A DNA stretch of 41,654 bases, from the IMG/VR virus record IMGVR_UViG_3300009788_000174, positions 1 to 41,654 of that record; one strand, written 5' to 3'. Positions within the stretch are counted from its first letter, which is position 1. Every line of letters starts with the position of its first letter. This stretch comes from a virus. The translations under genes were made by a program, and so were the position numbers. The notes below the pieces were generated by a model. That model did not search any database. It was not told the origin of the DNA and saw only the letters and a program-made list of their open reading frames with translations. Positions 2,470-33,411 of the stretch are shown one piece after another.

Positions 2470-5187
2470 ATGTTAACAAAGCGTGAAGCAATCAAGAATT
2501 TCTTGACGGCCAGCACTCACACAGACCTGGCCAGTCTGTACACACCAGACATGGAAGTCCAGGTTAATGTGGCACAGGGCGACGGTGAGCGTACAGAGGG
2601 TGAGTACAAAGGAAAGATGTGGCACGGGTGGACGGACGGTGTCACTACGTGGAAGTCCTTTCGTGTCCCATTTAGTGCTATGTCGAAACCACATTATAAA
2701 GACTCCCGTATAACGTGGGATTTAGGGGTGCATGCCGAGGGAATCGGTATGACTGGTTGGGACTGGAAAGCCAAAGTTTCTCGGTGGGTAGCTTACGACT
2801 TCGACGCTTTAGTTGGTGACCAACACAGAGGGACTGGTCTCAGTCCTGAAGAACTTAACAAGATTCAGGAGGCTGTTAATGACGTTCCTTGGGTTGAAGT
2901 TAGAAAGAGTACGTCGGGCAACGGACTCCATCTCTATGTCTTCCTTGACCCGGTCATCCCTACCATCAACCATAATGAGCACGCCGCCCTCTCGCGTGCA
3001 GTTCTCGGAGTCCTCGCCGCAATCACAGGATTCAATTTCGAGAATAAGGTCGACATTTGTGGGGGAAACATGTGGGTCTGGCATCGAAAAATGCGAGGCA
3101 CAGATGGTCTCACAGTTATTAAAGAAGCAAAGCCATTTGCAGATGTCCCGCCTACATGGCGAGATCATGTCAAGGTTATCAGCGGACAAAGTCGACGAGT
3201 CGTCCCACAAGAAATCGCGGACAACCCAGAGATGTCCGAGACTGATCGAATGCTGGCTGAACTCACAGGACAGCATATTAAAGAGACACTTGATTCGGAG
3301 CATAAGCGTCTCATTACGTTTCTCCGGGAGCATGATTGCATGTGGTGGTGGGATCAAGACGCCAACATGCTTGTCACGCATACCTTCCACCTTCGAGAAG
3401 CCCATGAAGCTTTAAAGTTGAAAGGTCCTTTCAGAACTGCCGCTACAGGTAGTATGCGTGGGCACGATCATAATTGTTTTCTATACCCGCTACGTAAGGG
3501 TGGGTGGGTCGTGCGTAGGTTTGCACCTGGGTGTAGTGAGCACGAGAGTTGGGACCAGGACGGTTCAGGTTGGACACGTTGTTATCTCAACGTAGACCCA
3601 GACCTTTCCCTGGCCGCACGTAGTCATGAAGGTATTGAGCATAAGACTGGCGGCTATGTTTTTACTCACGCCACGGATGGCCAAAAGGCAGCTAAGTCTT
3701 TGGGTGCAAATATGGAACTACCAGACTTTATGCTTGGTAGGCGTACCAAGCTTAAAACACATAAGGACGGCCGGTTAATTGTTGAAGTCGACAAAGATGC
3801 ATCTGACCCACCTGATAGGATGCATGGTTGGCTACCTGAAACTAAGACATGGACCAAAATCTTTGGTGTCAGTCAAACAAGTCTTCGTGATGATGAACGA
3901 ACTGATTACGATGATTTAGTTCGTCATATTGTGAACGAGCGACATGAAGATGCTGGTTGGGCTATTAAGACTGCTAGTAAGTGGACACAAGAGCCGCTTG
4001 CCCATGTTAAGCTTGTCTTGAAGAGTATGGGCCTCATAGACCGGGATTGTAATAGTGTCCTTGGTGGTAGTATTACCAAGAGATGGACGATTGTCAACAA
4101 ACCGTTTCAGCCTGAGTACCCTGGTGATCGTGAATGGAATCGTGATGCTTGCCAGCTAAAGTTCCACCCGAACAAAGGTGAGAATCTATCCTACCCAACA
4201 TGGTCTATGATACTAAGACATGTCGGTGCTGACCTAGATACATACATTGAAGCCCACCCATGGTGCCGTGAGAACGGCATTGTAACAGGGGCAGACTATC
4301 TGAAATGCTGGGTCGCATCTGTCTTCCAGTTCCCAACAGAACCACTCCCTTACTTGTTCATGTACGGACCTGAGGCTAGTGGTAAGTCCACCTTCCATGA
4401 AGCACTCAAGCTGCTAATCAGTCAGCGTGGATATGCTCTTGCGGCACAGGCACTTGTCTCACAACAGGGTTTCAATAATGAGTTAAAGAACGCTGTTCTT
4501 TGCGTCGTTGAAGAAACAAATGTATCTGGTAAAAGTAAGATGGCGTACAATCGAATTAAGGACTGGGTAACATCACCATTGATGTCGATCCACCCCAAAG
4601 GCGGAACACCATTCCTTTCTGTTAATACTACCCACTGGATTCATTGTACAAATGACCGGAGCTATTGTCCTCTCTTCCCTGGTGATACACGTATCACAGT
4701 AATTTATGTCGAGAAGGTATCAGAGAGTGCATTCCAAAATAAGCAGGAGATGGTTCGTAAGTTAATTAAAGAAGCCCCTGATTTTCTAGGGGCCATCATG
4801 TCTTTGGATATACCACGTAGTCCTGAGCGGCTTAACATACCGATCATTCAGACTAGTGACAAGATCATGGGGCAACAGCAGAACATGAGTTCACTTGAGT
4901 CGTTCATTGATGAACGATGTTATGAAGTTCCAGGCTATACAATTAAGTTCTCTGAATTCCACTCTGAACTTATCAAGTGGCTTGACCCATCTGAAGTCAT
5001 GGATTGGACAAAGATTGCTACAGGAAAATCATTACCTCGAAAGTTCTGTAAAGGCAGGGCTAAAGCAGACGGTCAATTCCATATTGGTAATATCTCTTGG
5101 GAACCGGCCGAACAATGTGAAAAGAGACTAACCTTATTCGTTAATGCACAAAACAAACTCACGGCAAGGGGAGAGAATAATGTCTGA
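2470..5187 (+). CDS. Primase-polymerase / SF3 helicase replication protein
   Basis: A 905-residue replication protein that would open, prime and unwind phage DNA. The N-terminal 250 residues resemble archaeo-eukaryotic primases: an acidic YDFD near residue 108 (metal site) and STSGNGLHLYVF near 147 (the S/G-x-G-x-H motif). A middle region carries a winged-helix-like stretch. The C-terminal third is a D5/SF3-type ATPase: Walker A GPEASGKST near 633, Walker B AVLCVVEET near 679, a sensor-like WIHCTND and an arginine-finger candidate in GDTRITVI. The ATG at 2470 is chosen because GGAGGTGGTA precedes it; the in-frame codon at 2437 lies on the operator. It is the first gene of the operon under the promoter at 2328-2356, and its stop overlaps the next gene by 8 bases. 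No separate DNA polymerase is seen, so the host enzyme may be used. Confidence 0.9.
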   Translation: MLTKREAIKNFLTASTHTDLASLYTPDMEVQVNVAQGDGERTEGEYKGKMWHGWTDGVTTWKSFRVPFSAMSKPHYKDSRITWDLGVHAEGIGMTGWDWKAKVSRWVAYDFDALVGDQHRGTGLSPEELNKIQEAVNDVPWVEVRKSTSGNGLHLYVFLDPVIPTINHNEHAALSRAVLGVLAAITGFNFENKVDICGGNMWVWHRKMRGTDGLTVIKEAKPFADVPPTWRDHVKVISGQSRRVVPQEIADNPEMSETDRMLAELTGQHIKETLDSEHKRLITFLREHDCMWWWDQDANMLVTHTFHLREAHEALKLKGPFRTAATGSMRGHDHNCFLYPLRKGGWVVRRFAPGCSEHESWDQDGSGWTRCYLNVDPDLSLAARSHEGIEHKTGGYVFTHATDGQKAAKSLGANMELPDFMLGRRTKLKTHKDGRLIVEVDKDASDPPDRMHGWLPETKTWTKIFGVSQTSLRDDERTDYDDLVRHIVNERHEDAGWAIKTASKWTQEPLAHVKLVLKSMGLIDRDCNSVLGGSITKRWTIVNKPFQPEYPGDREWNRDACQLKFHPNKGENLSYPTWSMILRHVGADLDTYIEAHPWCRENGIVTGADYLKCWVASVFQFPTEPLPYLFMYGPEASGKSTFHEALKLLISQRGYALAAQALVSQQGFNNELKNAVLCVVEETNVSGKSKMAYNRIKDWVTSPLMSIHPKGGTPFLSVNTTHWIHCTNDRSYCPLFPGDTRITVIYVEKVSESAFQNKQEMVRKLIKEAPDFLGAIMSLDIPRSPERLNIPIIQTSDKIMGQQQNMSSLESFIDERCYEVPGYTIKFSEFHSELIKWLDPSEVMDWTKIATGKSLPRKFCKGRAKADGQFHIGNISWEPAEQCEKRLTLFVNAQNKLTARGENNV

Positions 5188-5758
5188 AATGGGTAACACT
5201 AAGCTTGATGATTGGGGGCGTCTACCTGGCCATGAGCATTATGACGTCGATCCCGCAAAACTAACTAAAGCTGGGGAAATCGCATTTGAACTCCGCAATC
5301 TACCACTAAGGTCGCCGGCAGTACAAGAAGTATTTGATCGTCTTCACAGAGGCGAGAAGCCACCGGAACAGAAGGCCATGCGATCAAACAGCGGCAAGCC
5401 GTTGATGCATTATATTCTACACTATCCACGTACTGTTGAACTGCTGGCACGTATCCTAGAGTGTGGCGAACATAAGTACGAGTACATGAACTGGAAGAAA
5501 GGTAACAATACTGATGCCAGTTATCTTGACGCGTGTCTGCGTCACCTAATGCACTTTGTGGATGGGGAGACCCACGACAAAGAGTACAGAACCCACCACC
5601 TTGGTCATGCGATTTGGAATCTTATGACTATGTTTGAATTCAATGACCACGACATCCTTGTAAGTAAGGAAGAGTTTGACGCGGCCATTGTTAAGCTTGA
5701 CAAACTCAAAGAGGAGAGAGAACGTGCCAAAGAACAGCATGATACACCTGAACGGTAA
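5180..5758 (+). CDS. Phage dATP/dGTP diphosphohydrolase-like protein (DUF5664 type)
   Basis: A 192-residue protein. The core, from about residue 70, reads KPLMHYILHYPRTVELLARILECGEHKYEYMNWKKG, then YLDACLRHLMHFVDGE and LGHAIWNLMTMFEF. It is an all-helical pattern (YP..ve.la.vle.G..KY...NW, then LLRHLM.f..GE, then h..hA..n) of a phage family labelled dATP/dGTP diphosphohydrolase N-terminal or DUF5664. If the activity holds, it would act on purine deoxynucleotides and reshape the pool during infection, alongside ThyX and dUTPase in this window. The assignment is from remembered family pattern and the chemistry is not proven. The start at 5180 follows GGGGAGAGAATA; the gene overlaps its neighbours on both sides, a sign of translational coupling. 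Confidence 0.65.
   Translation: MSEMGNTKLDDWGRLPGHEHYDVDPAKLTKAGEIAFELRNLPLRSPAVQEVFDRLHRGEKPPEQKAMRSNSGKPLMHYILHYPRTVELLARILECGEHKYEYMNWKKGNNTDASYLDACLRHLMHFVDGETHDKEYRTHHLGHAIWNLMTMFEFNDHDILVSKEEFDAAIVKLDKLKEERERAKEQHDTPER
5690..5701. promoter_or_regulatory. GTTAAGCTTGAC dyad upstream of the exonuclease
   Basis: A one-mismatch copy of the 12-bp site, inside the end of 5180-5758 and 22 bases before the GTG start of the exonuclease at 5724. That is the same distance class as at other gene starts, so it may be functional although it lies in coding sequence. Confidence 0.4.
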
Positions 5759-6335
5759 TGCAATGTGCGTTATTGATTGCGAGACATCTGGTCTCAACGA
5801 CGAAGTCCACGAGATTGTGGAGATTGCTATTCTCCCATTGGACTCTCGATTTGAACTACGAAAAGATGTACCGATCTTCAACATCTTTATGCGTGTAGAG
5901 AATGATACAAAGATCGAATGGGAAGCCTTCCGTGTTACAAAGATAGATTTCTTCAAACACCAACAGACAGCCCTTGATAAGGACGTAGCTGCCGATCTAT
6001 TTGAACAGTGGGTTGACAAACTATGCCTACCCCATGGTAAGCGTATCAGTCCACTTGCCCACAACTGGAAGTTTGATAAAGGATTTATCGAACAATGGTT
6101 GGGTAAAGGAACCTTCGAGGATATCTTCGACGGTCGTTCCCGTGATACTCTTGATGTGTCATTGTTTCTGAACGACGTGGCCGATAGGAAAGCCGAGCAA
6201 ATCCCATTTGCAAAAAACAACCTTGGCTGGTTAGCTAAGACATTGAATATACCACATGAGCGAGCCCATACGGCTGTCGATGACTGTGTTGTCACAGCCG
6301 CAATCTACAAGCGATTTATCCAGGGGATGATTTGA
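5724..6335 (+). CDS. DnaQ-like 3'-5' exonuclease (DEDDh)
   Basis: A 203-residue exonuclease of the DnaQ/RNase T fold. The four acidic residues and the histidine of the DEDDh set are visible: D and E in VIDCETSGL, D in LAHNWKFDKGF, and H and D in RAHTAVDDC near the C-terminus. Such enzymes trim DNA or RNA 3' ends with two metal ions. With no polymerase in the window, it may work in recombination, host DNA turnover or proofreading with a host enzyme. The start is taken as GTG at 5724, seven bases after GGAG, giving MPKNSMIHLNGN; the ATG at 5739 is a later alternative. It overlaps the preceding gene by 35 bases, and its TGA overlaps the next ATG. Confidence 0.88.
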   Translation: MPKNSMIHLNGNAMCVIDCETSGLNDEVHEIVEIAILPLDSRFELRKDVPIFNIFMRVENDTKIEWEAFRVTKIDFFKHQQTALDKDVAADLFEQWVDKLCLPHGKRISPLAHNWKFDKGFIEQWLGKGTFEDIFDGRSRDTLDVSLFLNDVADRKAEQIPFAKNNLGWLAKTLNIPHERAHTAVDDCVVTAAIYKRFIQGMI

Positions 6336-6607
6336 TGAAGCATAACATCTACTTGAATGGTAAGCTCCTCAAGACCAAGACGTCACCAATAACAAATGGG
6401 TTCCTGACTCTATTTCAGGAACCCGTCACTGTTAGCAAGGATGATATAATGACCTCGGAAATGGAATTCCACAACACACAACTAGGAGTACCTTATGAAA
6501 AGACGGAGCTTCCTGAAGGCACTGAGCCTCTTCGTAGTCGCCCCATCGAGCCTCGACCTATCCCTCGTCGAATCGACACCCCTCGTAACGTCAGCCACGA
6601 CGTGTGA
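6335..6607 (+). CDS. Small protein with a terminase-like peptide
   Basis: A 90-residue ORF whose ATG overlaps the exonuclease stop. Residues about 43-53 read EFHNTQLGVPY, matching EFHNSKLGVPH in the phage's own large terminase (26863-28515) at eight of eleven positions. This is the stretch between the ATPase and nuclease halves of GpA-type terminases. The rest is not terminase-like and the C-terminus is rich in Pro and Arg. A strong hairpin (6398-6424) lies inside the ORF. The last 113 bases overlap 6495-6761 in another frame. It may be a degraded or captured fragment, or a small functional mimic; I cannot tell which. A shorter product from the ATG at 6449, after AAGG, is possible. Confidence 0.5.
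   Translation: MKHNIYLNGKLLKTKTSPITNGFLTLFQEPVTVSKDDIMTSEMEFHNTQLGVPYEKTELPEGTEPLRSRPIEPRPIPRRIDTPRNVSHDV
6398..6424 (+). other. Perfect 10-bp hairpin inside the small ORF
   Basis: GGGTTCCTGA at 6398-6407 pairs exactly with TCAGGAACCC at 6415-6424 around a 7-base loop. There is no T-tract after it, so it is not a classical terminator. It could pause transcription, protect mRNA ends, or hide the start at 6449. Confidence 0.6.
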
Positions 6608-6761
6608 TTGCTTCGTCCCTGAACTATGGGCACGTGAGTCAGTCCTGATACTAAAAGAAAACATGAAAATAGCGGAGATCATCCATCGTGATAAGAAGAA
6701 CTTTTCTAGCGACCCTCCTGTCCGTTCCCTCGTCCGCCTTGGCGATTTCAACTGGGGGTAA
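6495..6761 (+). CDS. Signal-like N-terminus fused to a capsid-protein fragment
   Basis: An 88-residue ORF in two parts. Residues 1-about 33 look like a twin-arginine-type export signal (KRRSFLKALSLFVVA, then polar). Residues about 38-72 match the N-terminus of the phage's own major capsid protein: FVPELWARESV ... KENMKIAEIIHRD against FIPEIWANEGV ... IENMVISGMVHRD. The capsid protein is 474 residues, so only its first helical segment is represented. AGGAG lies about eight bases upstream of the ATG. It overlaps the previous ORF by 113 bases and the next by 74. It could be decayed coding sequence, or a capsid-derived peptide used against competitors; both readings are inference. Confidence 0.55.
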   Translation: MKRRSFLKALSLFVVAPSSLDLSLVESTPLVTSATTCDCFVPELWARESVLILKENMKIAEIIHRDKKNFSSDPPVRSLVRLGDFNWG

Positions 6762-7146
6762 ATTTGACTACCCACACAAAGAAGAGGAAGGCCCCACACC
6801 AACGCCACTAATTCCATTTGAAGTTGGGTATGTCTTTGGGGACGACCTGGAGCCATGCGTAATTGAAGTGTTTCGTGTTGACACTGCTAAGGGTGAAGCC
6901 AGCTTCCAGTTCTCCCATAGGTTAACACGCACGCGACTTCTCTTAGGGTGTTACCTTAAATCCGCCGATGACAAACTCCTCGGTGTTGAGGGGATCGACG
7001 ACGAGGTCGGTGGCTGTAGGGTAACTGCCGGTAACAAGGTTAGCCTTACCATGATTATGGACTTGAAGACAGGGACGATAATCAAGCAGCCGACTAAGGC
7101 ACAGGCTAGAGCCCATGCTTGTCTTGATTATGGCCAGATGATTTAA
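6688..7146 (+). CDS. Putative exported protein of unknown function
   Basis: A 152-residue protein starting at GTG. The N-terminus has a twin-arginine-like signal: IRRTFLATLLSVPSSALA, with a likely cleavage after ALA, followed by a Pro/Glu-rich linker and a compact beta-rich domain (FEVGYVFGDDLEPCVIEVFRV ... LLLGCYLKSADDKLLGVEGID ... KVSLTMIMDLKTGTII). GGAG lies about ten bases upstream. It is the last gene of the plus-strand operon; its stop overlaps, tail to tail, the stop of the minus-strand gene at 7143. No family is recognised. A role at the host envelope, such as superinfection exclusion or lysis timing, would fit an exported phage protein but is only inferred. Confidence 0.65.
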   Translation: MIRRTFLATLLSVPSSALAISTGGKFDYPHKEEEGPTPTPLIPFEVGYVFGDDLEPCVIEVFRVDTAKGEASFQFSHRLTRTRLLLGCYLKSADDKLLGVEGIDDEVGGCRVTAGNKVSLTMIMDLKTGTIIKQPTKAQARAHACLDYGQMI

Positions 7147-7880
7147 GTCCCAGGGGCACCCGGCCATGGTACAATATAAGCACTAATGCTAACATTGGTA
7201 GACCCGGACTGTATACATGTCCAATCACTCCCATCACACGGTGCCATTGGGTGTGATACATTAACACCACCAAAGGGACTAGCATTATTGTATAGTGTGA
7301 TCGAATCAGAGAATACACCTGCGGGACCTGAGATAGAAATACTGACCCGAACAAGCGGCGTGTTCAAATCATTTGTTCCATTCCATAAAATTTCAAGTGT
7401 ATGCATCCCTAAGAATATAATAGGATCATGATGTGGGTTGTTTTCTACACGAACTAGATTGTCTAGTGGATCATGAGACATTTCCCCATTCCACCCACCA
7501 CTGGTGGCAGTATTATAACCACCTGACTCACTCCAACCAGACATTGCAAGTGGACCCGTTTCACTTCGGTATCCTGATCCTGACCACCCTATAGACAATC
7601 GGTATCCATGGATGTTAATCCCAATTGGATATCCTTTTTCAATAACTACCTCATGGTTATGGGGGCATGGGTTAACTCCCTTTTGACGTAGTAATTGAAA
7701 TATGTCGTCTCTATCGGCCGCCATAAGTGGACGGGCATAATAACCCGCCTCATAGGAACGTCGCTCAACTAGTGTCATATCCTCAGCAGAATATAATGTT
7801 GTCGGCATATGGTCGAGTGGGACACACGAACCTATAAGTGTGGGAAGATTATCACCGACCTTGAGTCCATTATGTGGCAT
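7143..7880 (-). CDS. Last gene of the tail cluster, possible tail-tip or receptor-binding protein
   Basis: A 245-residue protein directly after the tail hub gene, with one base between the hub stop and its ATG; no good ribosome binding site is seen, so translation is probably coupled. The N-terminal third is helical (RRSYEAGYYARPLMAADRDD). The remainder is Gly/Ser/Asn-rich and beta-like (GWSGSGYRSETGPLAMSGW, SISGPAGVFSDSITLYNN). Position downstream of the hub and the Gly/Ser-rich composition suggest an exposed tail protein, but no family is recognised. It ends the minus-strand virion transcript, meeting the plus-strand operon with a 4-base overlap and no obvious terminator between them. Confidence 0.75.
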   Translation of the reverse strand: MPHNGLKVGDNLPTLIGSCVPLDHMPTTLYSAEDMTLVERRSYEAGYYARPLMAADRDDIFQLLRQKGVNPCPHNHEVVIEKGYPIGINIHGYRLSIGWSGSGYRSETGPLAMSGWSESGGYNTATSGGWNGEMSHDPLDNLVRVENNPHHDPIIFLGMHTLEILWNGTNDLNTPLVRVSISISGPAGVFSDSITLYNNASPFGGVNVSHPMAPCDGSDWTCIQSGSTNVSISAYIVPWPGAPGT

Positions 7881-7881
7881 G

Positions 7882-10800
7882 CTAGATCCAGACTGCTACT
7901 TGCATCGTGTATTGTGTTTGGGCCACATCGTCGACCATCCATGTTTGCTTAGAAACCATAACACCAGTACCAACGGGAAGATCAACTCCACCAGCAATTT
8001 GAACTTGGTATGCCGTGACAGTTTCAGTTTCACCACCGATACCATTCTTGTAGATATCAACAGCATATAGACTACCACTACCACTCGCGATTCGACCTGG
8101 GTAAGTAGCACCGCTACCTCCACCCCCTACAGCATCAAGAGCTTCCTGGACCATCGCTATATACTGTGCATGTGTCAGTTCGCCTTCACTATATCCCGGT
8201 AAGCTCGTCTCATCAATTGGCTCCGTAGCTTCTGAATAGTCACCACGTCCAGGGTATATTGAGTTTGGTGGCCGGTCTCCATCTGATGGGTCACCAGCAT
8301 AATACTTGCCTTCTGGTTTGACATCGTCAATGTCGGATGGTTTTAAGTCACCACTATCATGATTAGTCCCACCACCTGCACGAGCAGAACCAGTGCTCCC
8401 ACCACCCCCTCCACTGCCCCCGCCTGCACCACCACCTCCGTACCCACCAGAGATACCACTATTACGTTCGTACCAATCGGACATCTGGTTATCGACAATA
8501 GTTGAGCCACCCTCTACCTCTACACCCGGACCATCACCGCCCGCGAAACCTGACGCTATTTCTTCATCAGTCGGGAAGTAGTTCGCGGGATCAATCTGTG
8601 ATGGCCAAGCATAAATGTATGGTTCCATTTCACCAGACCGTACTGGAACCCATGCCTCAACTTGAAGTTCCATGGACGCAGAGTCATACGTCACATCTGT
8701 TACAAGTGCTGCAACATCAGAGTCTGCAATAAAGTTCTGATTAAAATCGAACTTAACTGTGTCAAAACTTTCAAGATACAACTTATGCAGGTATGTCTTA
8801 AAACGTATCTGCTTCCAGATATTTGCTTTCCGGATAAGCCAGAACGTCGCAGACTTGAGCACAAGCTCACCAAAGTTGTAAATGTAAAAGTCAAAGGTAC
8901 GCTCGTGCAATCCGTACTTCTTTACATTGTGACGTAACACTAAGTCATACGGTTTGTCCTTGGCATAGTCATCTGTCCATTGAGCGACAAACTTTGTGAC
9001 TAGTTCTTCAGCCCGTGTTGTTATGACTTCCATAGTCTCAACAGCAATGTCTGACTCTGTGACTGTGTCAACTTCTGATAGTTGTTCGGCAAGGTACTTG
9101 ATAAAGAATGTATTGTCCGAGATCCAAACGGCACAGCGAGCCTGGAAGGCAATCTCTTCCAGTGCCTGCATGATGTTCATCCTATCAAACAATGCGAAGT
9201 TTGATGGGTAGTTCTCAATCATTGCCTTCACGTAATTGAATGATGTAGTATCCCAACTCAGGTCAGTATACTTATCAATCATCCATGTCATAATGTCTAC
9301 AGTATTTGGCCCGACCGGACTAGTCTGTGTGACATAGATATCATCGGCCCATTCTGAGTCATAGAAGTTAAGTGGCTGGTCAAGTGTGATTGAAGTAACA
9401 GTGTACCCGACAAGATCCACATGTCGTACTGTGTAGTATGACGAAGGGACAGTCATTAGACGTTCAAGACCATTGATGGTTTTGAACGCTTTGACATGGT
9501 GTACTGCCGACGGTAAGATGTTTGCAATATAGGTGACGTGGATGTTAGAGTTAACACGAATCCTACTACCCGCTTGTAGAAATGTGAAGCCATAAGCGTC
9601 AGCTAGTCCAGACGAAAAGTCTGTGACGACACGCTTTGTTATAGTGAACGTGTCACCATCAAATTGCCCACCCACAACGATGTGGTCGATACGTAGTTCG
9701 ATGTATTCATTCTGTGGAAAGAATGCACCATTCACCACCTTGAACTCTGAAGCCTGATACTCTTCTTGCTGTTCTTTGACAGCTTCCAACGCAGCACGTT
9801 CTTCGTCAAGCTCTGAACGTGAATTCATGAAATCACTATCACCACCATCCGGATGGACAGATGCAGCTAGAGCATCCATCACTGCTGCCGCTAGCATCTG
9901 ATAACTAGCATAGCGTTGATCGTATAGGTTAGCCCAATACTGATATGTTTCCGTGTTGTGCTGTAGTGCTTCGGCCGCAAGATTGTAACCATCAATTGCT
10001 AAGTTGATCGATTCCCAAGCATCAATCAACTCAGCTTTAAGTGTAGATATATCTGAACCTTCTTCTGACAACGTAATCGTCTTACGTATGTTATTGATTA
10101 TCGCTCTTCTTGCCTGCACTAATGCCAACCACGCATTAGTATCCGACGTTGATTTTATTACGGCCGCAGCCGCCACCTCAGCATAATCTTTGGCCTCATT
10201 CATTAGGTCCATCATCTCATCGCGTGAAGCGATGTTGATATACGCTGTGCTACCCATCGAGTCGCCGTATCTGTTCAACTCGTTCAGTCGTTCGTCAATG
10301 TATGGATCGATAACACCAAGAGATTCGGCCGTCTCTGCAATAGGCACTTCCTGTAGTGCTACAGCCGGTACGTTCTGACACATACCGAAGACGAGTGGCC
10401 ACGCCTTCCCTATTAAGTCCTCAGGGATGTAGGTAAAGTCACCTTCCTCGGGAGAAAACCCAATTTCTTTGTCGGCGAGCTTAGTAATCACCTCAAAGTG
10501 TAGTGAGCGAGAACCTTCCTTCCATATCGTTGGGCTGGTAATCTCACCCTCGAAGAGAAGGAACTTCTCAGCCAACGGGATACCTTCCATCCACTGGAAG
10601 ATCCTACATGGCCGACCATGCACGTCATTGTAGTTAATGATGTGCTTCAGCGTACCATCACTGTCGGCAAGCTCCATTGATATACCCTGGCTTCTGCCCT
10701 GGCTGTCCATCTTAACAACACTCTCCATAGTGCTGACACTGAGAATCTTACCCTCGATATTACTACCGGGGATATCCTTGTCGGCGTACTGATGCCATTG

Positions 10801-10896
10801 ACCATCTACAGCCCACTGAACCTCGACAATACAAACGGATTCTGAGCCGTGTGAATTTGTGAGCCTCTCTGACATTACAGGACTAAGGGTTTTCAT
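7882..10896 (-). CDS. Large tail hub / tail-tip protein
   Basis: A 1004-residue protein, the largest tail gene after the tape measure. Residues 1-about 200 are beta-rich and resemble the baseplate-hub start (SIEGKILSVSTMESVV, a short PCRIFQW region). Residues about 210-400 form an Ala/Glu-rich helical insertion likely to be coiled-coil (AEVAAAAVIKS, AERAALEAVKEQQEEY). Residues about 410-800 return to a beta-domain with phage hub features (NTVDIMTWMIDKYTDLSWD, FALFDRMNIMQALEEIAFQARCAVW). A Gly-rich hinge follows near 835-860, then a 140-residue tail. It starts at an ATGA overlap with the preceding gene. The place after the tape measure and the size support a J/gp17-like central tip protein. 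Confidence 0.78.
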   Translation of the reverse strand: MKTLSPVMSERLTNSHGSESVCIVEVQWAVDGQWHQYADKDIPGSNIEGKILSVSTMESVVKMDSQGRSQGISMELADSDGTLKHIINYNDVHGRPCRIFQWMEGIPLAEKFLLFEGEITSPTIWKEGSRSLHFEVITKLADKEIGFSPEEGDFTYIPEDLIGKAWPLVFGMCQNVPAVALQEVPIAETAESLGVIDPYIDERLNELNRYGDSMGSTAYINIASRDEMMDLMNEAKDYAEVAAAAVIKSTSDTNAWLALVQARRAIINNIRKTITLSEEGSDISTLKAELIDAWESINLAIDGYNLAAEALQHNTETYQYWANLYDQRYASYQMLAAAVMDALAASVHPDGGDSDFMNSRSELDEERAALEAVKEQQEEYQASEFKVVNGAFFPQNEYIELRIDHIVVGGQFDGDTFTITKRVVTDFSSGLADAYGFTFLQAGSRIRVNSNIHVTYIANILPSAVHHVKAFKTINGLERLMTVPSSYYTVRHVDLVGYTVTSITLDQPLNFYDSEWADDIYVTQTSPVGPNTVDIMTWMIDKYTDLSWDTTSFNYVKAMIENYPSNFALFDRMNIMQALEEIAFQARCAVWISDNTFFIKYLAEQLSEVDTVTESDIAVETMEVITTRAEELVTKFVAQWTDDYAKDKPYDLVLRHNVKKYGLHERTFDFYIYNFGELVLKSATFWLIRKANIWKQIRFKTYLHKLYLESFDTVKFDFNQNFIADSDVAALVTDVTYDSASMELQVEAWVPVRSGEMEPYIYAWPSQIDPANYFPTDEEIASGFAGGDGPGVEVEGGSTIVDNQMSDWYERNSGISGGYGGGGAGGGSGGGGGSTGSARAGGGTNHDSGDLKPSDIDDVKPEGKYYAGDPSDGDRPPNSIYPGRGDYSEATEPIDETSLPGYSEGELTHAQYIAMVQEALDAVGGGGSGATYPGRIASGSGSLYAVDIYKNGIGGETETVTAYQVQIAGGVDLPVGTGVMVSKQTWMVDDVAQTQYTMQVAVWI

Positions 10897-17485: not shown

Positions 17486-18304
17486 TTAGAGAGGCAGAAT
17501 TGCCGAATCAAATCTGACATGGCTTGCCGTCAGTCGATTACAGCGTCCGGAACAAGCAACGCTTGCTTCCTTCGTATCGTGGTCGAGTCCTTCGTAATAG
17601 AATTCCTCGAAAAGGGATTGCTCGTCATCGATCGCCGAGCACGCTGGAGCATTGACGATTTCAAGGTCAACACAGAATGGCTGACAGGTATCATCAGCAG
17701 TAGTTACCCAAGTATCGGCCGGGGCCAGATTCTTTAGGACTTCTTCGATCGTCGGTACAGATGCACCGTTAGCAGACGTGAGGAATTCCCACATGAAGTC
17801 AAACGAGACATCCATCGGTTCCTCGTCAGCATCACGTACCGTATCAAGAGAACCACGGTCCAAACTGAACTCTCTGGTCTTCTTCTCGGAGTGGGTAAGA
17901 TTACCATCACCGACCTTAATTTCAAGTGAGTTATGGCCTGTGAGTCTGGTAATGGCTTGGGCCTCAACGAGAACCGAACCAGCACCAACTTGAGATGCTG
18001 TAAAGAGGGCAACCGCGTCGGCATCACCATCAAGGGCAGCTTCAAGTAGAGTAGCAGTAGTTGTAACTGCACCAGTTGCATATGCAAGTGTGACAGTAAC
18101 ATCAACACCAACTACAACTACGGCAATCGAGCCGTCGCTGCCTGGGTCAACGAGAGTAATCGAGGGAGTTGCACTCCCATGATGCTTACTAAGAGCAGTA
18201 AGCAAAAGCTTTCCATCATCACCACCTGTATTAGTTGTGGTAAGAGTCGGAATCGTACCATCCCAAAGTCTCAGGATAGCGTTCTTCAGGTCAATCTTTG
18301 CCAA
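17486..18304 (-). CDS. Tail tube protein, copy 2 (TTG start)
   Basis: A 272-residue protein nearly identical to copy 1 (18321-19136) in the first 19 residues (MAKIDLKNAILRLWDGTIP) and in the last about 157, where only two residues differ (T for A, V for I). The middle, residues about 20-113, has diverged apart from TALSKHHGSATPSIT. Placed between head-tail genes and the chaperone, it fits a major tail tube role. It starts at TTG where copy 1 has ATG, with the same AAAGGAG upstream, so less product is expected. The pair may form a mixed tube or a decorated minority subunit. Confidence 0.82.
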   Translation of the reverse strand: MAKIDLKNAILRLWDGTIPTLTTTNTGGDDGKLLLTALSKHHGSATPSITLVDPGSDGSIAVVVVGVDVTVTLAYATGAVTTTATLLEAALDGDADAVALFTASQVGAGSVLVEAQAITRLTGHNSLEIKVGDGNLTHSEKKTREFSLDRGSLDTVRDADEEPMDVSFDFMWEFLTSANGASVPTIEEVLKNLAPADTWVTTADDTCQPFCVDLEIVNAPACSAIDDEQSLFEEFYYEGLDHDTKEASVACSGRCNRLTASHVRFDSAILPL

Positions 18305-18320: not shown

Positions 18321-19136
18321 TTAGAGAGGCAGAATTGCCGAATCAAATCTGACATGAGAAGCTGTCAGTCGATTACATCGCCCGGAGCAAGCCACACTGG
18401 CTTCCTTCGTGTCGTGGTCGAGTCCTTCGTAATAGAATTCCTCGAAAAGGGATTGCTCGTCATCAATCGCCGAGCACGCTGGAGCATTGACGATTTCAAG
18501 GTCAATACAAAATGGTTGACAGGTATCGTCAGCAGTAGTTACCCAAGCATCGGCCGGGGCCAGATTCTTTAGGACTTCTTCGATCGTCGGTACAGATGCA
18601 CCGTTAGCAGAAGTAAGAAACTCCCACATGAAGTCAAACGAGACATCCATCGGTTCCTCGTCAGCATCACGTACCGTGTCAAGAGAACCACGGTCCAAAC
18701 TGAACTCTCTGGTCTTCTTCTCGGAGTGGGTAAGATTACCATCACCGACCTTAATCTCAAGCGAGTTATGACCTGTGAGTCGGGTGATAGCCTGGGCATC
18801 AGGAACAAGCGAACCGTCGCCATCTAGCGTCATTGTAGCAAGTGCAACGGCGGCAGGAACACTGTCGTATTCTGTCTTCATTGCCGATGCAATTGTATCA
18901 ACTGAACCAGAATAGTTGAGTGTGATAACAATGTCAACACCCGTAACCACAACGCTAAGCGATGTAGTGCTAGTCGGATGAATAATTGTAATCGACGGAG
19001 TTGCACTGCCATGATGCTTACTGAGAGCAGTCAGTGTTACCTGACCGTTCACACCAGCACCATTAACTGTAGTCAGCTCCGGAATTGTACCATCCCAAAG
19101 TCGCAGGATAGCGTTCTTTAGATCAATCTTTGCCAT
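18321..19136 (-). CDS. Tail tube protein, copy 1 (ATG start)
   Basis: A 271-residue protein, the upstream member of a tandem pair. Residues about 20-113 form a variable beta-rich segment (SITIIHPTSTTSLSVVVTGV). The rest is shared with copy 2, including EKKTREFSLDRGSLDTVRDADEEPMDVSFDF, a charged strand pattern usual in tube proteins. AAAGGAG lies nine bases before the ATG. The near-identity of the conserved part at DNA level also (few substitutions over about 470 bases) points to recent duplication or gene conversion while the central segment diverged. Confidence 0.83.
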   Translation of the reverse strand: MAKIDLKNAILRLWDGTIPELTTVNGAGVNGQVTLTALSKHHGSATPSITIIHPTSTTSLSVVVTGVDIVITLNYSGSVDTIASAMKTEYDSVPAAVALATMTLDGDGSLVPDAQAITRLTGHNSLEIKVGDGNLTHSEKKTREFSLDRGSLDTVRDADEEPMDVSFDFMWEFLTSANGASVPTIEEVLKNLAPADAWVTTADDTCQPFCIDLEIVNAPACSAIDDEQSLFEEFYYEGLDHDTKEASVACSGRCNRLTASHVRFDSAILPL

Positions 19137-20179: not shown

Positions 20180-21604
20180 CTAGCAAAGCATCAGTGCCGC
20201 GAGATAGGGATCAAGTGTAGCAACACCACACAACAGGTCAACCGTCACCAGGAGACCCTGCTTACGACCTTCGTAACTCGCGTTGACACGAATCGCGACA
20301 TCGCCGTAAGACGCAACGCCGGACATGACGCCCATACCACTCGGGATCTGAATCAGAGGACGCAGAACCAAGGAGAGGCAATTCCGCTCGAAAGCAAAGT
20401 TGACTTCACCGGCGGGGCCAAGGTCGACGTGGTCGTCTTCCACAACCGCATTCACAAGCGGACGATCCAGCCAAATCGAAGTAGTATCGCCGGCGGTTTC
20501 GATCGTCTTGACAACAGAGTAGTAGCCAGCGATAGCTACGTCAGGAGTCGCATCAGTCGAGAACGCGATAAGCGTACCAGGCTCGATGACTCCAGTGTAA
20601 CCATCAATGACAATTGCCTTCGAGTAACCCGCAGCGTAGGCACTCGTAGTGGCCGCACGATTGTAAATCGTGACAACAGCATCGTCAAGGACTGCATTAC
20701 GCAGACCTGGAGTAATGGTAACGTCAAGATCCTCAGTCGACGGACTGGCAGTCAGCGTAACACGGTGAATCGTGTCATCACCAGCAATCTTGATGAACTT
20801 GCCTTCCGTCTGGCTAAGGTCCGTCACGGCCGCCGTATCCATGTGGATAAGGGTAGTACCAGCAACATAGCCGCCGCTATTGTCGACCTTCGACGCTATC
20901 GACTGAATTGTAGTAATCGGACTGGGCGTGTTCTGACACTGGTAGATATCGAACCCGTACTTACGTCCGATGCTCGCTTCTCGCAGTGCCGAACCGTCAT
21001 CACCAACCTTGTCGGCCTCGGTGAACGTATCGAGGTTCAACATGATTGCTTCGGTTTCGGGACCGATAATCAAAGTACGACCGGGGAGAGGGGCCTTGTT
21101 GATACTCATACGCTTTCGCGTATCGACCATATAACCCTTGATCGTATCGACAGTACCCAAGCCAAGACCACCCTGCTGGTTGTCCATGAACTGATAAGCT
21201 TGCCCAAGGGTAATCTTATCAAGACCTTGAACCAGCGAGAGAATCGCCGGGACCAAGTAAAGCGCCTTCAGCTCTTGGAAGGACTTAGACAGGTCTTCGT
21301 CCTGGAGCGTAAAGGTGGTTTCGAGGTGCTGATTCAGCACAACCGGAATGTCGGTAGCTTCCGCATTTTGGACGGTGACTTCATCAGTCTTTGTCTTACG
21401 GTTGAATTCAAACTCGGCAGGCTTCCGAGTATGAACGGTTTCACCGAACTTGGCGATCTTCGAGGAGAAGTCACGATGGACCATACCCGAAATAACCATG
21501 TTCTCAATAAGAACGGCAACGCCTTCGTTCGCCCAGATTTCTGGGATGAACGCCGCAAGGTCATTGTCATACACGAGTCGAAACGGAGTTGAGAAAAGTC
21601 TCAT
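20180..21604 (-). CDS. Major capsid protein, P22-coat-like
   Basis: A 474-residue coat protein. The N-terminus has the helical signature of the P22 gp5-type family: FIPEIWANEGVAVLIENMVI then HRDFSSKIAKFGETV, with RKP following; the scaffold gene is just upstream. Residues about 250-370 form an extra beta-rich insertion (GKFIKIAGDDTIHRVTLTAS, PGTLIAFSTDATPDVAIAGY), expected for P22-like coats. The C-terminus, YEGRKQGLLVTVDLLCGVA, also matches the family pattern. Before the coat signature come 14 residues, MRLFSTPFRLVYDN, echoed in the scaffold's start (SSPFRLVYDD). The start overlaps the end of the scaffold region by position (21607); AAAGG upstream is distant, so coupling is likely. A truncated copy of its N-terminal helix is found at 6495-6761. 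Confidence 0.9.
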   Translation of the reverse strand: MRLFSTPFRLVYDNDLAAFIPEIWANEGVAVLIENMVISGMVHRDFSSKIAKFGETVHTRKPAEFEFNRKTKTDEVTVQNAEATDIPVVLNQHLETTFTLQDEDLSKSFQELKALYLVPAILSLVQGLDKITLGQAYQFMDNQQGGLGLGTVDTIKGYMVDTRKRMSINKAPLPGRTLIIGPETEAIMLNLDTFTEADKVGDDGSALREASIGRKYGFDIYQCQNTPSPITTIQSIASKVDNSGGYVAGTTLIHMDTAAVTDLSQTEGKFIKIAGDDTIHRVTLTASPSTEDLDVTITPGLRNAVLDDAVVTIYNRAATTSAYAAGYSKAIVIDGYTGVIEPGTLIAFSTDATPDVAIAGYYSVVKTIETAGDTTSIWLDRPLVNAVVEDDHVDLGPAGEVNFAFERNCLSLVLRPLIQIPSGMGVMSGVASYGDVAIRVNASYEGRKQGLLVTVDLLCGVATLDPYLAALMLC

Positions 21605-21606
21605 AA

Positions 21607-22464
21607 TTAGTTTTTACCTTTCACTAGGGTAGTCGGATCAACACCGGGATTTTCCTTACGCCACTTCATATAGGCGGCAGGGTCCTTCAGTGAATCAACC
21701 GTCACATTGCGACCGCTGCCACTACCCGCACCATTGGTGGAACCAAATCCACCAGTGCCCGGATTCGTGAAGAGATTACCAAATCGCTCTGGTAGTTCCT
21801 TCATACGTTTGAGGGCATCCTCAGGTTTGAGTGTCAGCATGGTCGGATTGCCGTCGTCGTCTACATCGACGAACTTAACCAACGGCTCGTATTCCCCAGT
21901 AGGTTGTCCTGCTTCATTAAGGACCTCCCCCAGGTAGGTTTTTGGGCCGAGAATGTCCATGATCTGCTCATTGACTTCGACCTTGGCCGCTGTGGCCGCA
22001 TCCAGTATCGAACGATTGATACGTTCGGCACTGTAGTTACTTTGCCAAGTGTCTCGCTCTTTGGTAAGCTTATCAAGCTCTTTCGCATGGGCGACTTGAG
22101 CCTTCTTCGAGTTCCTCTTGACAATTTCTTCTTGCGTCATAGATTGCTCTTGGAGCTTCTCCAGACGCTCTTCCAGGTCTCCCCGCTCAGTAGCGGTCAT
22201 CGTTGCCTGCTCTTTGAGTGTGTTAAGCTCACCCAGCAGTGTTTCGTTTTGCTTCGACACAGTCCGGCGGTTCTCAGCCATCATGGAATTCAGCTTCTCT
22301 TGGGTAAGAGTGATCTCACCCTTCTTCGCCGTAGCTTCGGCTTCAGCTTTCGCCGCCGCAGTTGCAGTAGCCTCAGCGGTTGCAGCAGCCTCAGCGGCAG
22401 CCGCATCACTGGCGTCATCATAGACGAGGCGGAACGGCGAACTTCTCAACATGGAAAACAACAT
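21607..22464 (-). CDS. Capsid scaffolding protein
   Basis: A 285-residue protein directly before the capsid gene. It begins MLFSMLRSSPFRLVYDD, then an Ala/Glu-rich segment (AEATATAAAKAEAEATAKK) and a long coiled-coil (KLNSMMAENRRTVSKQNETL, ERLEKLQEQSMTQEEIV, about residues 50-150). A conserved part follows (DILGPKTYLGEVLN, EPLVKFVDVDDDGN), and the C-terminus is Gly/Asn-rich with a final basic stretch. These are the usual features of phage scaffolds, which direct coat assembly and then leave the head. GGAG is seven bases before the ATG. Confidence 0.86.
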   Translation of the reverse strand: MLFSMLRSSPFRLVYDDASDAAAAEAAATAEATATAAAKAEAEATAKKGEITLTQEKLNSMMAENRRTVSKQNETLLGELNTLKEQATMTATERGDLEERLEKLQEQSMTQEEIVKRNSKKAQVAHAKELDKLTKERDTWQSNYSAERINRSILDAATAAKVEVNEQIMDILGPKTYLGEVLNEAGQPTGEYEPLVKFVDVDDDGNPTMLTLKPEDALKRMKELPERFGNLFTNPGTGGFGSTNGAGSGSGRNVTVDSLKDPAAYMKWRKENPGVDPTTLVKGKN

Positions 22465-25049: not shown

Positions 25050-26866
25050 TATTTACCTTCCCCTCGTGTTTCGTCCTTAGGGACTGTGTCTAGTGTTTTC
25101 TCTTGCTTCTCATCCTTACTAGCATTATCAACGCCACCAAGTTCATCGACACCACGAGCTTTCGTTTGGGCCTCCAAAATACGCGTTGCCCGCTCAGCGT
25201 GAGCAATCTTAGCTTTCTCAACTACGCCCTTCGGGTAGTTCTTAGCTCCACTGGCCGACTCAGGATCAATCAATCCCATTTCCACATCATCCTTCAATAC
25301 ATCTGGATCAGAGAAAATTACCTTGGCACTATCAATCTCACCCTCAATTTTCTTGAGTGTCTGCAACGAGACCTTATGGGCAATGTCAATGTTAACAATC
25401 TGCTTGAGTGCTTCACGCTGGTATGTAATAGACGGACTATTCTTCATTGACTTACGGAGTTCTTCGGCCTCTTCCCGTCGATCGTTATCTGTACGTAAGG
25501 AATACTTCGTCGGGTATCTGATTGTTGGGATCGTGCCCTTCAAGTTCTCATACATAGTCCAGAACCGAGCGACATTTCGTTCACCCTGCTCAAGTTCAAG
25601 ACCAATAGCACTTAGCCCGGCTTCAAGACTACGTTCATCATAGCCCTTACTCTCTGCTGAAGCCATCGTTGGTCGCATTGACGATACAGCAAGACGAGCA
25701 AGAGCCTTAATATCTCGCTTTAACTCATCTTGTTTCGCCATTGAGGCTTGGACTGGCTCAGAAGAGGGATGAATAAAGGCCGGCATATCCAACCCCTTTG
25801 GGATACGTCGCCCTGACGATGGACCTGCTGCAATCTCTTGGTTCTTCGACGTCTCTGCATCTTCTGCTGTCCCTTGGTATACGATTGTAGACCCATCTTC
25901 ATCGGTTTCACTAGCAATTGCAGCCCGACGTTGATAAAAGTTCTCTGATTTAGGGTCAAATTGCTCAACGTAGAATGGAAAATTCGCTCGTAGTAAGTAT
26001 GAGATATCTGCACTTGCCAGATTCATCAGTGTGATCTGATAATTGGCAATATCTGTCATCAAACTTTCAAAGATCGTGAAGAGCGTGAACGGAATCGATG
26101 GTAATTGTGCAATTTGTACATCAATACCAGGCTGACCGAGTCGATTGATTGGTTTGGAATCCTTATCAAAGAAATGACAGTATATACAACCATCACCACG
26201 CCATAGATAACGAAAACGCTCCTCAATCTTGGTTGGGAGTCCCGTTGCCTCATCACGCCCCATTGCATAGTCGCGGAGAAGTAGGACTTGGAACTCTACA
26301 CTATCACTATCACTCTCAACTACCCAATTAAGGATATCTTCTGTTTTGTAGTGGTAAATGTAAGGGTGACTATCCCCCTTTTGACTCATTGTTGGACCTT
26401 GAAGCTCTGGCATATCAACAAATACACCGACTCGACCCAATGCAAGTAGCTCAGGTAGGATATTTCGCCCCACAAAGCTATTCATAGAGCTTCCTTTACG
26501 GTCGATACCGTAGTTAAGCCCAAGACTTGCGTCCAAAAAGGATTGCTCACCTCCTTCACGAGTCACATCCGAAATTCGTTGGAAAATCGAATCTTTGACT
26601 TCATTAACAGCATCTTTAGCAAATGCTGCATTGTAAGATAAGGCTTTTCGCTCATCGAAATCTGTGGTCGACTCCCGCTTGCTGAACTTCTTGATATATG
26701 CTTCAATAAATTCATCGCCAGCTTCGTATGTCAGCCGCCACTTAGACCAAGACTCACACTTTTTAGCATAATCTGGGTGTCTCGAAGACGCAATCTTTAC
26801 GTCTGATGCCATGATCTCATGGATATGAGATTCACCCAGTGCTTTACTTAACTCAAAATCGATCAT
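25049..26866 (-). CDS. Portal protein (DUF4055-type)
   Basis: A 605-residue portal, the dodecameric ring through which DNA enters the head. The N-terminus has YAKKCESWSKWRLTYEAGDEFIEAYI and YNAAFAKDAVNEVKDSIFQR. The centre has GRVGVFVDMPE and YHYKTEDILNWVVES, the usual signature of the DUF4055 portal group, then SLMTDIANYQITLMNLASADISYLLRA. The C-terminus is charged and extended (GVDELGGVDNASKDEKQEK). It follows the terminase with an ATGA overlap, the standard TerL-portal order. Confidence 0.87.
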   Translation of the reverse strand: MIDFELSKALGESHIHEIMASDVKIASSRHPDYAKKCESWSKWRLTYEAGDEFIEAYIKKFSKRESTTDFDERKALSYNAAFAKDAVNEVKDSIFQRISDVTREGGEQSFLDASLGLNYGIDRKGSSMNSFVGRNILPELLALGRVGVFVDMPELQGPTMSQKGDSHPYIYHYKTEDILNWVVESDSDSVEFQVLLLRDYAMGRDEATGLPTKIEERFRYLWRGDGCIYCHFFDKDSKPINRLGQPGIDVQIAQLPSIPFTLFTIFESLMTDIANYQITLMNLASADISYLLRANFPFYVEQFDPKSENFYQRRAAIASETDEDGSTIVYQGTAEDAETSKNQEIAAGPSSGRRIPKGLDMPAFIHPSSEPVQASMAKQDELKRDIKALARLAVSSMRPTMASAESKGYDERSLEAGLSAIGLELEQGERNVARFWTMYENLKGTIPTIRYPTKYSLRTDNDRREEAEELRKSMKNSPSITYQREALKQIVNIDIAHKVSLQTLKKIEGEIDSAKVIFSDPDVLKDDVEMGLIDPESASGAKNYPKGVVEKAKIAHAERATRILEAQTKARGVDELGGVDNASKDEKQEKTLDTVPKDETRGEGK

Positions 26867-28515
26867 GCTGGAGACTCCATGTTTTGTGAAACACCCGTTG
26901 ACACTGCCAAAGGTAATGCTATCTCCGCGTAGTTACGGGAATGAGCAAAGTGGTCATGATGGTTATCACCTTTGATGTATTTTCCGATTAAATTGCCGTC
27001 GGAATCTTTTTCATAAATCCTCACAAGAGATTTAAGGTGTTCCTTGTACTCGTTTGACAGATCCTTTGGTAAGAGTATCATCTTTGAGCGGAATCGGCTC
27101 AAAGATAAGTCTAACCACGAAGTACGATCAACGGAGACGGTGAGTTCGTCCTCGTTGACATGAATTTGTTTCCCGGCAATACCACGACTATACTGACACA
27201 GGCTGACTTTACCAAACCACCGCTCAGCAAACTCGCGTGCTTTTCTCTTTTCAGGTTGTGAATCGATGACTGCATGTTTTACTTTGAACGCATCCATGAG
27301 AGCATCTAGCTCCTCGAAGTGACGGCACTTCCCTTCCAAAATGACAGATGGTTTTGCGTGCGTGTTAACATTAACAGAGTCAGGTGCCAATTTCCACAGA
27401 TCGACTTCATAGTGAAGCCAGTTTCCGACATCAATACCCATTGTGATAAGACGGTCGCTACGCTCTTCGTAGAATCTCTTAAGAAAACCACCCATGCAAT
27501 CGCGAAGATCGGCATCACAAAGCTTGGCACCATCAACAATGTGTGGTACACCAAGCTTCGAGTTGTGGAATTCTTGTTCATCTGCTGGATTTGTCTGGGC
27601 TAAAAAGTAAGCTTTGATGAAGTTCGATGGTGTTGCACCCTTAGCACTTGAATACATCTGGCTTATGCCAAATCCCCGCATAGTCTTTTCTTTGACCTTA
27701 GGGACCCATATTCCATTCGCTAAGAATTCCCACTTCTGTTCATGTACAAGCTCTTTACCGCAAAGGTGACATTTCAGGAATGATTTCGCTACATCTGGAT
27801 CGTCGGAGTGTTCGCCGCAAATCTCATAGTTTCTAGGGAACTCAAGATTGATATGCTTACCACACCCAGGACAATGAAAGAAGAACTCTTCCTGTGTTGA
27901 AGTCTTGAATGTAGTGTTGATTCCCTTGTCATCGACTGTTGGTGTGGAAATTTCCCATGTTAGGGCCATACTATAACCAGAAAGACGTTCACGGGCGAGA
28001 GGTATATTCTCTTGCCGCATTTCATCTTTCTCGTCTAGTACTAATACTCCTACGGGAACTGATTTAAGTCCCGCCCTTGACTTACTTCCTCGGATGTAGA
28101 GATTAGCTTGGCCCGCTCTTTTATGACCGACGTTCTTAACATCTGTAAATATTTTGCCCAGATGTGCTGAAGATTCAATAGCTGGATCAAAACGAGCAGC
28201 ACTGAAATCACTAGCGTCTGGGGTTTTAGCGGGAAGCACATAAAGACAATCCACCCCGTGAATATCAATGTAGTAAAACACGATATTAAGGACAGTCTCG
28301 GTAAATCCCATTTGGGCTGCTTTTTGTCCAACATTGAATTCCGCCTCACTATCATGCATCCCCCTAAGCCAAGGGTGTCTCTTAAATGACCATCGCCCTG
28401 GGTAGGGTGGTCCCATTTCACGGTAAGCTTCAGCCCATTGTGAAGGTAACACAATTGACTTACGCCTCAGGCCGGATGAAATCCTCTCCGTCATCAAAGT
28501 AGCTAAGGCGTGCAT
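26863..28515 (-). CDS. terL: Large terminase subunit, GpA-like
   Basis: A 550-residue DNA packaging motor. The ATPase half has LPSQWAEAYREM, PGRWSFKRHPWLRGMHD, a Walker A-like GQKAAQMGFTE at residues 63-73 and Walker B VLVLDEKDE near 157-165, the pattern of lambda gpA-type terminases. The zinc-binding FFHCPGCGKHINLEF ... CHLCGK lies near 215-255. The nuclease half starts ITMGIDVG near 360, with VIDSQPEKRKAREFAERW and GDNHHDHFAHSRNYAEIAL. GGAG lies six bases before the ATG at 28515. The first about 20 residues overlap another frame that also reads like protein (28460-28630), so a slightly later start is possible. Confidence 0.9.
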   Translation of the reverse strand: MHALATLMTERISSGLRRKSIVLPSQWAEAYREMGPPYPGRWSFKRHPWLRGMHDSEAEFNVGQKAAQMGFTETVLNIVFYYIDIHGVDCLYVLPAKTPDASDFSAARFDPAIESSAHLGKIFTDVKNVGHKRAGQANLYIRGSKSRAGLKSVPVGVLVLDEKDEMRQENIPLARERLSGYSMALTWEISTPTVDDKGINTTFKTSTQEEFFFHCPGCGKHINLEFPRNYEICGEHSDDPDVAKSFLKCHLCGKELVHEQKWEFLANGIWVPKVKEKTMRGFGISQMYSSAKGATPSNFIKAYFLAQTNPADEQEFHNSKLGVPHIVDGAKLCDADLRDCMGGFLKRFYEERSDRLITMGIDVGNWLHYEVDLWKLAPDSVNVNTHAKPSVILEGKCRHFEELDALMDAFKVKHAVIDSQPEKRKAREFAERWFGKVSLCQYSRGIAGKQIHVNEDELTVSVDRTSWLDLSLSRFRSKMILLPKDLSNEYKEHLKSLVRIYEKDSDGNLIGKYIKGDNHHDHFAHSRNYAEIALPLAVSTGVSQNMESPA

Positions 28516-32204: not shown

Positions 32205-33368
32205 TTATTGATGATCGACACCGGTCACACGACCAGACTGATCGATCTTCAAACGAAACTGCATCTTACCCTTCATCGTTTTAGACAAAGCGGTTGTAGA
32301 TTGTTCAAGTCTTTGTATACGGATCAAAGCATCGCGATTTTTTGCTGTTACCGATCCTAAGTTCTTATTATGGGTAATCACCTCCCTTTGTATAGTTTCA
32401 ACCGCTCCCATAACTTGCTGAAGCTTACTACGAGCTTCGCGTAAGTCCATTTCTAAGGACTCAATCTTTTTAGTGTGAATTGTAATGGCAGTTTTGTTAT
32501 GACTGATACCATCACACTTCGGGAGTTCTCTCATACGCTGTTCAAGTGAAGATATACGGGCAAGAAGAGACGTATCAACTACCGCTTTGGGCATCTTCGG
32601 TGGGTCCACCGGAACTAGCGGTCTTTTTTCAACGGAAGAGGACCCAAGGAGGCTTTTAAGAAGTTCTGTGATAAGTGTGACATTCGGGCCGATCGTACAC
32701 CCACCGAGATCAGTAGGCGAGTATTCGGCAACGATGCCCACAATACCATTTGCAGAATAGATAGGGCCTCCGGAGTCCCCTTCCTGAGCAAAACACCTGA
32801 CCTGGATATTACCACCCTCATAGCCAAGCACTGTACCGGCACGCCCAGCCTGGGTTACTCGTGTTCCGGGTGCAGCAAATGTGGGTGCTAGAGTCAGAGG
32901 AATTGGGTGATTGGCGGGTGCCCGTAAGACCACGATGTCGGCAATTGCCGCACCTTTTAGAATTGTGGTCTTAACCCACTGGTTGTTAAGGTTAACCTCA
33001 GCCGTCCAGCCGGGTTCAAAGATATGGGCACACGTTACGATATATTGCTTACCCTCAAAGAGTACAAAACAGCCAGTGCCGTACTGCATAGCACGCGGAC
33101 AGACGGTTCGGATTTGTATCTCGGAAGGATGTCTTTTGCCCGCCGGCTGACGTGTCGGGGCCGTCGGCCGGGCGGGTTGAACCGGTCGCGGAGGACCGGG
33201 GTTATAACGAGGAGGTTGGCGTGGGGTACATCCTTGTGGACCACATCGGTTACCAATCTTAATGCCGAAGCAACCAGCATTTTCATCGTAAGTGGTCTGG
33301 GACATACAAGTATGACCCCATAGGGCAAATGTTAAGGCTAACAACACTTTGCACGATTTCTGTAACAT
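32205..33368 (-). CDS. Secreted trypsin-like serine protease with C-terminal coiled coil
   Basis: A 387-residue exported protease. Residues 1-about 24 are a Sec signal (MLQKSCKVLLALTFALWGHT). A Pro/Arg-rich linker with several cysteines follows (residues about 40-80), then a chymotrypsin-fold domain with the full triad: H in VTCAHIF (115), D in ADIVVLRA (144) and S in GDSGGP (199). After about residue 260 a coiled-coil-like region runs to the end (SSLEQRMREL, MDLREARSKLQQVM). The ATG at 33368 is preferred because GAGG is six bases upstream and an earlier in-frame codon at 33440 lies on the promoter. It is the first gene of the late transcript. Phages with exported triad proteases are unusual; host-envelope cutting, prohead or receptor processing are all possible. 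Confidence 0.84.
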   Translation of the reverse strand: MLQKSCKVLLALTFALWGHTCMSQTTYDENAGCFGIKIGNRCGPQGCTPRQPPRYNPGPPRPVQPARPTAPTRQPAGKRHPSEIQIRTVCPRAMQYGTGCFVLFEGKQYIVTCAHIFEPGWTAEVNLNNQWVKTTILKGAAIADIVVLRAPANHPIPLTLAPTFAAPGTRVTQAGRAGTVLGYEGGNIQVRCFAQEGDSGGPIYSANGIVGIVAEYSPTDLGGCTIGPNVTLITELLKSLLGSSSVEKRPLVPVDPPKMPKAVVDTSLLARISSLEQRMRELPKCDGISHNKTAITIHTKKIESLEMDLREARSKLQQVMGAVETIQREVITHNKNLGSVTAKNRDALIRIQRLEQSTTALSKTMKGKMQFRLKIDQSGRVTGVDHQ

Positions 33369-33411
33369 CTTTGCCTCAGTCTTGGGTGTCAGAGGTTTCG
33401 TTCTACATCCT

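Follow-up and report, generated by a model that had tools for sequence, protein, structure and literature searches.

Fragments of terminase and coat genes at the early-operon end of a phage genome with a P22-type coat, and a possible decoy of the coat N-arm

Introduction

The C-terminal helices of the P22 scaffolding protein are bound by the N-arm of the coat protein (residues 2–30), which is helical (PMC9965877), and the scaffold of SPP1 likewise holds the N-terminal helix of its coat protein (PMC6813328). A small protein that carries one side of the scaffold–coat contact can redirect assembly, as is seen in the mimicry of the 80alpha scaffold by CpmB of SaPI1 (PMC5644958).

The DNA considered here (the window) is an IMG/VR virus record of 41,654 bases encoding a P22-type coat protein and a GpA-type terminase. 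Two small ORFs at the end of its early operon, A and B, had been singled out in an initial annotation as resembling pieces of the phage's own large terminase (TerL) and coat protein, and the two readings offered there, an interference peptide and a relic of recombination, are the ones that are still live. The reading that we prefer, at a probability of roughly 45%, is that the fragments were captured by recombination and that the copy of the coat N-arm was kept as an assembly decoy. As such, B would be like CpmB in being a small protein with one contact side that would compete during capsid assembly; but CpmB represents the scaffold side and is encoded by a satellite, whereas B represents the coat side and lies in the phage's own early operon. 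B might also be compared with Tab, the prophage tail assembly blocker (PMC10884400), as a small phage protein blocking virion assembly, although Tab, going by its description, blocks the assembly of tails and is constitutively expressed from the prophage.

The early/late junction of the window

The early genes for a primase, a nucleotide hydrolase and an exonuclease run rightward and stop near 7146, where the late genes start on the opposite strand (7143–7880, 7882–10896 and onward). The gap between the exonuclease stop codon and the late genes holds ORFs A, B and C, which overlap (Table 1), the TGA of the exonuclease gene overlapping the ATG of A (TGATG). A and B are both open as initially annotated, and encode the peptides given for them. 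The best Foldseek matches of the window's coat model (itself of low confidence) were the coats of P22, Sf6 and CUS-3. When the primase was used as a query against host genomes, two distant loci were found and no more.

Table 1. Features of the window referred to in the text
Feature	Position	Strand	Evidence
DnaQ-like 3'-5' exonuclease gene, defining the slot	5724..6335	+	Pfam RNase_T 4e-15; PHROG polymerase exonuclease subunit
Small early ORF A (90 aa); middle reads as TerL linker motif	6335..6607	+	Open frame; coding-like codon use in frame
Terminator-like hairpin for leftward (late) transcripts, inside ORF A; 10-bp perfect stem, then T-rich tail	6398..6424	-	
Terminase-like piece EFHNTQLGVPY, A residues 44-54	6464..6496	+	Shuffles, PHROG, TerL profile; homologous stretch in L009
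ORF B, 88 aa; coat N-terminal piece fused behind a twin-arginine-type leader	6495..6761	+	Open frame, coat profile
Tat/Sec-like leader of B (MKRRSFLKALSLFVVAPSSL...), first ~25 residues	6495..6581	+	Likeness to leaders of L141 and L009
Coat N-arm piece, B residues ~34-69 = coat profile positions 6-41 (coat residues ~9-41)	6594..6701	+	Profile search
ORF C, 152 aa; GTG start overlapping end of coat piece; leader and predicted beta-sandwich; distant homologue of L009 leader gene	6688..7146	+	
P22-type coat gene, intact; family from which B piece derives	20180..21604	-	Pfam P22_CoatProtein 1.8e-20; PHROG major head protein 5e-52
GpA-type large terminase gene, intact; family from which A piece derives	26863..28515	-	Pfam GpA_ATPase 1e-31

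A terminase-like piece in ORF A

The middle of A has a motif, F(H/Y)NxxLGxPY, like that of the linker preceding the nuclease domain in GpA-type large terminases, but the likeness spans just some 11–16 residues, the linker motif alone being there and the ATPase and nuclease domains absent. Against the window's virion proteins A scored 55, a value equalled by 3 of 1000 shuffles, so the match is marginal taken alone. A 16-column profile of the motif was therefore judged against controls: it was built from 15 phage TerLs unrelated to the window (the window and its relatives being left out), and A scored 27.1 bits, compared with a maximum of 15.8 among 138,524 control 22-mers. Because the motif had been picked for its match, the score must be discounted by a look-elsewhere factor of some thousands, after which A is still significant. 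Among 38,880 PHROG families, the sole match to a 27-aa peptide of A was phrog_675, terminase large subunit (E=0.27), in the right place. The proposed terminase likeness of A is thus real, marginal though the shuffle test is by itself. No homologues of A were found in a search of cultured phages.

The DNA of the TerL piece is also the ribosome site and start region of B: the part encoding LGVPY holds the AGGAG, and terminates at the start codon of B. The TerL likeness as a mere property of ribosome sites was ruled out, the 3756 control frames lying ahead of start codons all having scored 10.4 bits at most.

The TerL piece was found again in the same slot in L009, a relative whose exonuclease is 74% identical to that of the window, and in a weaker version in L012. 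The L009 stretch (DREFYNTQLGVPY, 4424–4477) is homologous to the A piece (E 0.14 to A), scores 24.8 bits with the same TerL motif profile, and lies about 24 nt past the exonuclease stop, continuing into a leader gene (MLNRRSFAK...); the L012 version, TTFYSQQMGIPY, is upstream of MLRRTFATT.... The piece sits in the 34 nt before the Tat-type leader gene and doubles as the ribosome site of that gene. Of the 34 nt before the leader start, 26 are identical in the window and L009, compared with 5 of 26 further upstream. In-frame ATG, GTG and TTG codons were looked for in the L009 stretch and none was found. Lacking a usable start codon in L009, the TerL piece is no conserved peptide, and it overlaps the ribosome site and start codon of the conserved leader gene; the picture of A and B as a matched pair of like peptides has to be given up. 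We take the piece to be an old fragment of terminase, which has come to act as a start site for translation.

The hairpin within A (Table 1) is a reason for extra caution about A being a gene. Late transcripts may cross C, B and part of A before they reach it, which would provide RNA antisense to early genes.

A coat N-arm piece in ORF B

The coat likeness of B is well founded. Against the window's virion proteins B scored 90 (the top of 1000 shuffles was 58); it gave 33–36 bits with coat profiles, including 36 bits (E=5e-9, in a scan of short six-frame peptides) with a profile of 41 coats, and matched the window's own coat at E=7e-7, the aligned core being F40–D66 (6612–6692). B is also a chimera, whose first ~25 residues, unnoticed at the time, form a twin-arginine-type leader. 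The profile that it matches is of the P22 type (Pfam PF11651), but B holds the N-arm alone, preceded by the export-type leader, and the E-loop, spine helix, P, A and I domains are absent; B is not a coat protein. Cultured phages were searched for homologues of B, and none was found.

The low DNA identity remarked on initially is confirmed for the coat piece (about 0.48–0.64 to sampled coats), and we agree that the pieces are old. Over 27 codons the B piece differs from the nearest coats at 8, 4 and 18 first, second and third codon positions, respectively, and coats of separate groups diverge by codon position much as the B piece does from coats. Constraint on the protein probably acted through most of its history, and the piece may either have departed recently from an unsampled coat lineage or be under coat-like constraint. 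In similarity to the B piece, the window's own coat ranks only 19th of 39, and from this it seems that the donor was probably another phage. B carries changes, such as ENMK for ENMV, that are unlike any sampled coat, and these speak against the decoy.

Recurrence of the coat piece

The initial idea had been made to depend on presence in relatives, and here the outcome is divided: the TerL piece is in L009 and, more weakly, in L012, and the coat piece is in a distant cousin, L068, but is missing from L009, which alone among close relatives spans the whole slot. The L068 case was the one further match outside coat genes when the coat profile was run over the short six-frame peptides of all loci. 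It is a 76-aa ORF, the first after the exonuclease, which starts on the exonuclease stop codon, ends with IVHKDFE-stop and has no export-type leader, so that the same coat segment follows the same exonuclease as in the window. Weak alone (17 bits), the peptide recovered L068's own coat gene when compared with the whole L068 record (E=2.7e-5).

A search with an N-arm consensus took in 43 clan records. Forty matched, 39 of them exactly once and in an open frame of coat length (461–536 codons), for which reason we read these single matches as coat genes; the L068 record alone had a second match besides its coat gene (E=2e-5). Among cultured phages the consensus matched 333 records, in one place each, the matches listed being capsid genes or unnamed proteins.

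The coat pieces of the window and L068 cover the same ~31 columns and have the same end point, an agreement that, by our own estimate, would be rare (about 0.4%) if both had been scraps taken at random from these virion genes. The L068 piece and B are alike at 9 of 29 positions, less than either is to coats, and they therefore look like separate captures. Chance resemblance might be entertained for A alone, on its shuffle value of 0.003, but is rejected at the sequence level by profile scores far above those of the 138,524 controls, by conservation in L009 and by recurrence in L068, just as the initial annotation had found the pair hard to see as chance; we consider it the least probable explanation of all.

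A scan of 81 distinct post-exonuclease regions, made with 19 virion profiles, picked up on the early strand short pieces of TerL (window and L009) and coat (window and L068) and of nothing else; the other matches listed were to tail genes and, on the opposite strand, one to a terminase small subunit. Some defence systems sense terminase or capsid. That TerL and coat alone were represented among the 19 virion proteins would fit with decoys for such host sensors, or with other immune functions, but a TerL piece of 11–16 aa, untranslatable from the usual starts in L009, makes this very improbable.

Leader genes and ORF C

The leader of B has 15 of 20 residues in common with the leader of another of these phages, L141, and is also related to that of L009. 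A twin-arginine motif followed by a hydrophobic stretch is present in MKRRSFLKALSLFVV and MIRRTFLATLL; the leaders of B and C resemble Tat-type export signals. The related L141 leader matched Pfam TAT_signal below the cut-off only. Small genes with twin-arginine-type leaders occur in several of these phages (window, 6688–7146; L009, 4461–4838; L141, 3001–3255). The beta-sandwich of C is predicted with middling confidence; Foldseek gave no significant match, and matches of C to cultured phages were at chance level only.

These leader genes might conceivably be mobile cassettes that were once inserted in TerL and coat genes, their start codons overlapping the 5' host sequence, and that carried this tag into the early operon. 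Each piece does run out right at the start codon of a leader, the relative frame being the same in both cases (6496/6495 and 6692/6688), and the window, L009 and L012 all have the TerL tag together with the leader. However, there is no leader gene behind the L068 coat piece, no TerL or coat gene with such an insertion was found, and searches of A–C against PHROG and Pfam gave no endonuclease family, in C or the others, nor Rfam any intron or other RNA family that would point to a group I intron or homing cassette. We regard this origin as improbable.

Two other ideas were discarded. CAAYTAGGAGTACCNTATG proved not to be gene-specific, since of its eight matches in the collection three fell at the start of an unrelated gene and another four in contexts that are not homologous. 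An origin of A, B and C by tandem duplication was dropped because the sequences preceding the two leaders are dissimilar.

Relics of recombination or a coat decoy?

Close behind our preferred reading comes one in which the pieces are purely relics: the early/late junction would be a hot spot of illegitimate recombination, the pieces its undecayed debris, and A and B chance open frames. The absence of a start codon from the TerL piece of L009 points this way, as do the lineage-specificity of the pieces, the overlapping of the ORFs (B overlaps heavily with both A and C) and the joining of a leader to a coat fragment in B. L009 also has, on the late side of the same junction, a fresh 266-bp tandem duplication (5517–6110, at the end of the late operon; copies 266 nt apart and 99% identical) with a chimeric mini-ORF made from pieces of two neighbouring genes. 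Relics are less easily reconciled with the finding that the coat pieces of two distant phages lie in open frames, span one and the same stretch of ~31 residues and break off at one point, or with a codon pattern that lacks excess decay; moreover, compact phage genomes usually lose old scraps.

If the coat piece is instead a decoy, the last part of the early operon, directly past the exonuclease gene, would still be a site at which virion-gene fragments are captured by illegitimate recombination. The TerL fragment, old and common to at least one and probably two relatives, would persist as the 5' region of a small Tat-leader gene, and the coat N-arm fragment would have been captured separately in the lineages of the window and L068. 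This second fragment may have been retained in the form of a small early protein, a mimic of the coat N-arm that would bind the scaffolding protein, thereby delaying or tuning capsid assembly or spoiling the assembly of co-infecting relatives. We infer these functions from the homologies, positions, open frames and recurrence that are observed, the hypothesis being founded on the N-arm–scaffold contact of P22 and SPP1 and on the precedent of CpmB; by analogy with P22, the captured segment should contact the scaffold, which in the window is probably encoded at 21607–22464. In the window's coat the N-arm segment is predicted to be helical, with low confidence, and as the coat model is poor (mean pLDDT 51), the basis of the mapping to P22 is the sequence family together with the papers cited. 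A decoy acting simply in the cytoplasm is hard to square with the export-type leader that B carries; the absence of the coat piece from L009, the lack of a match to it in the other post-exonuclease regions and a recurrence of two cases only also tell against a decoy.

A somewhat less probable generalization is that early, stand-alone N-arm mimics are encoded by some tailed phages, were acquired at one and the same operon position by lineages independently of each other, and bind the scaffolding protein so as to time capsid assembly or to sabotage it. If the N-arm copy works, it would be a phage-encoded handle on the scaffold–coat contact, a step also attacked by satellites such as SaPI1, with the attack coming, unlike that of SaPI1, from the coat side and from early genes. 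If the pieces are only debris, they still mark a recombination hot spot by the exonuclease at which terminase and coat gene fragments recur, and include a piece of a terminase gene turned ribosome site.

Elsewhere in the window, the neighbouring genes at 17486–18304 and 18321–19136 are near-identical at both ends and differ in their middles, which suggests a duplication with a diverged inserted domain, and the product of 32205–33440 is a Trypsin-like protease (Pfam Trypsin_2, 1e-7), which seems to have a signal sequence.
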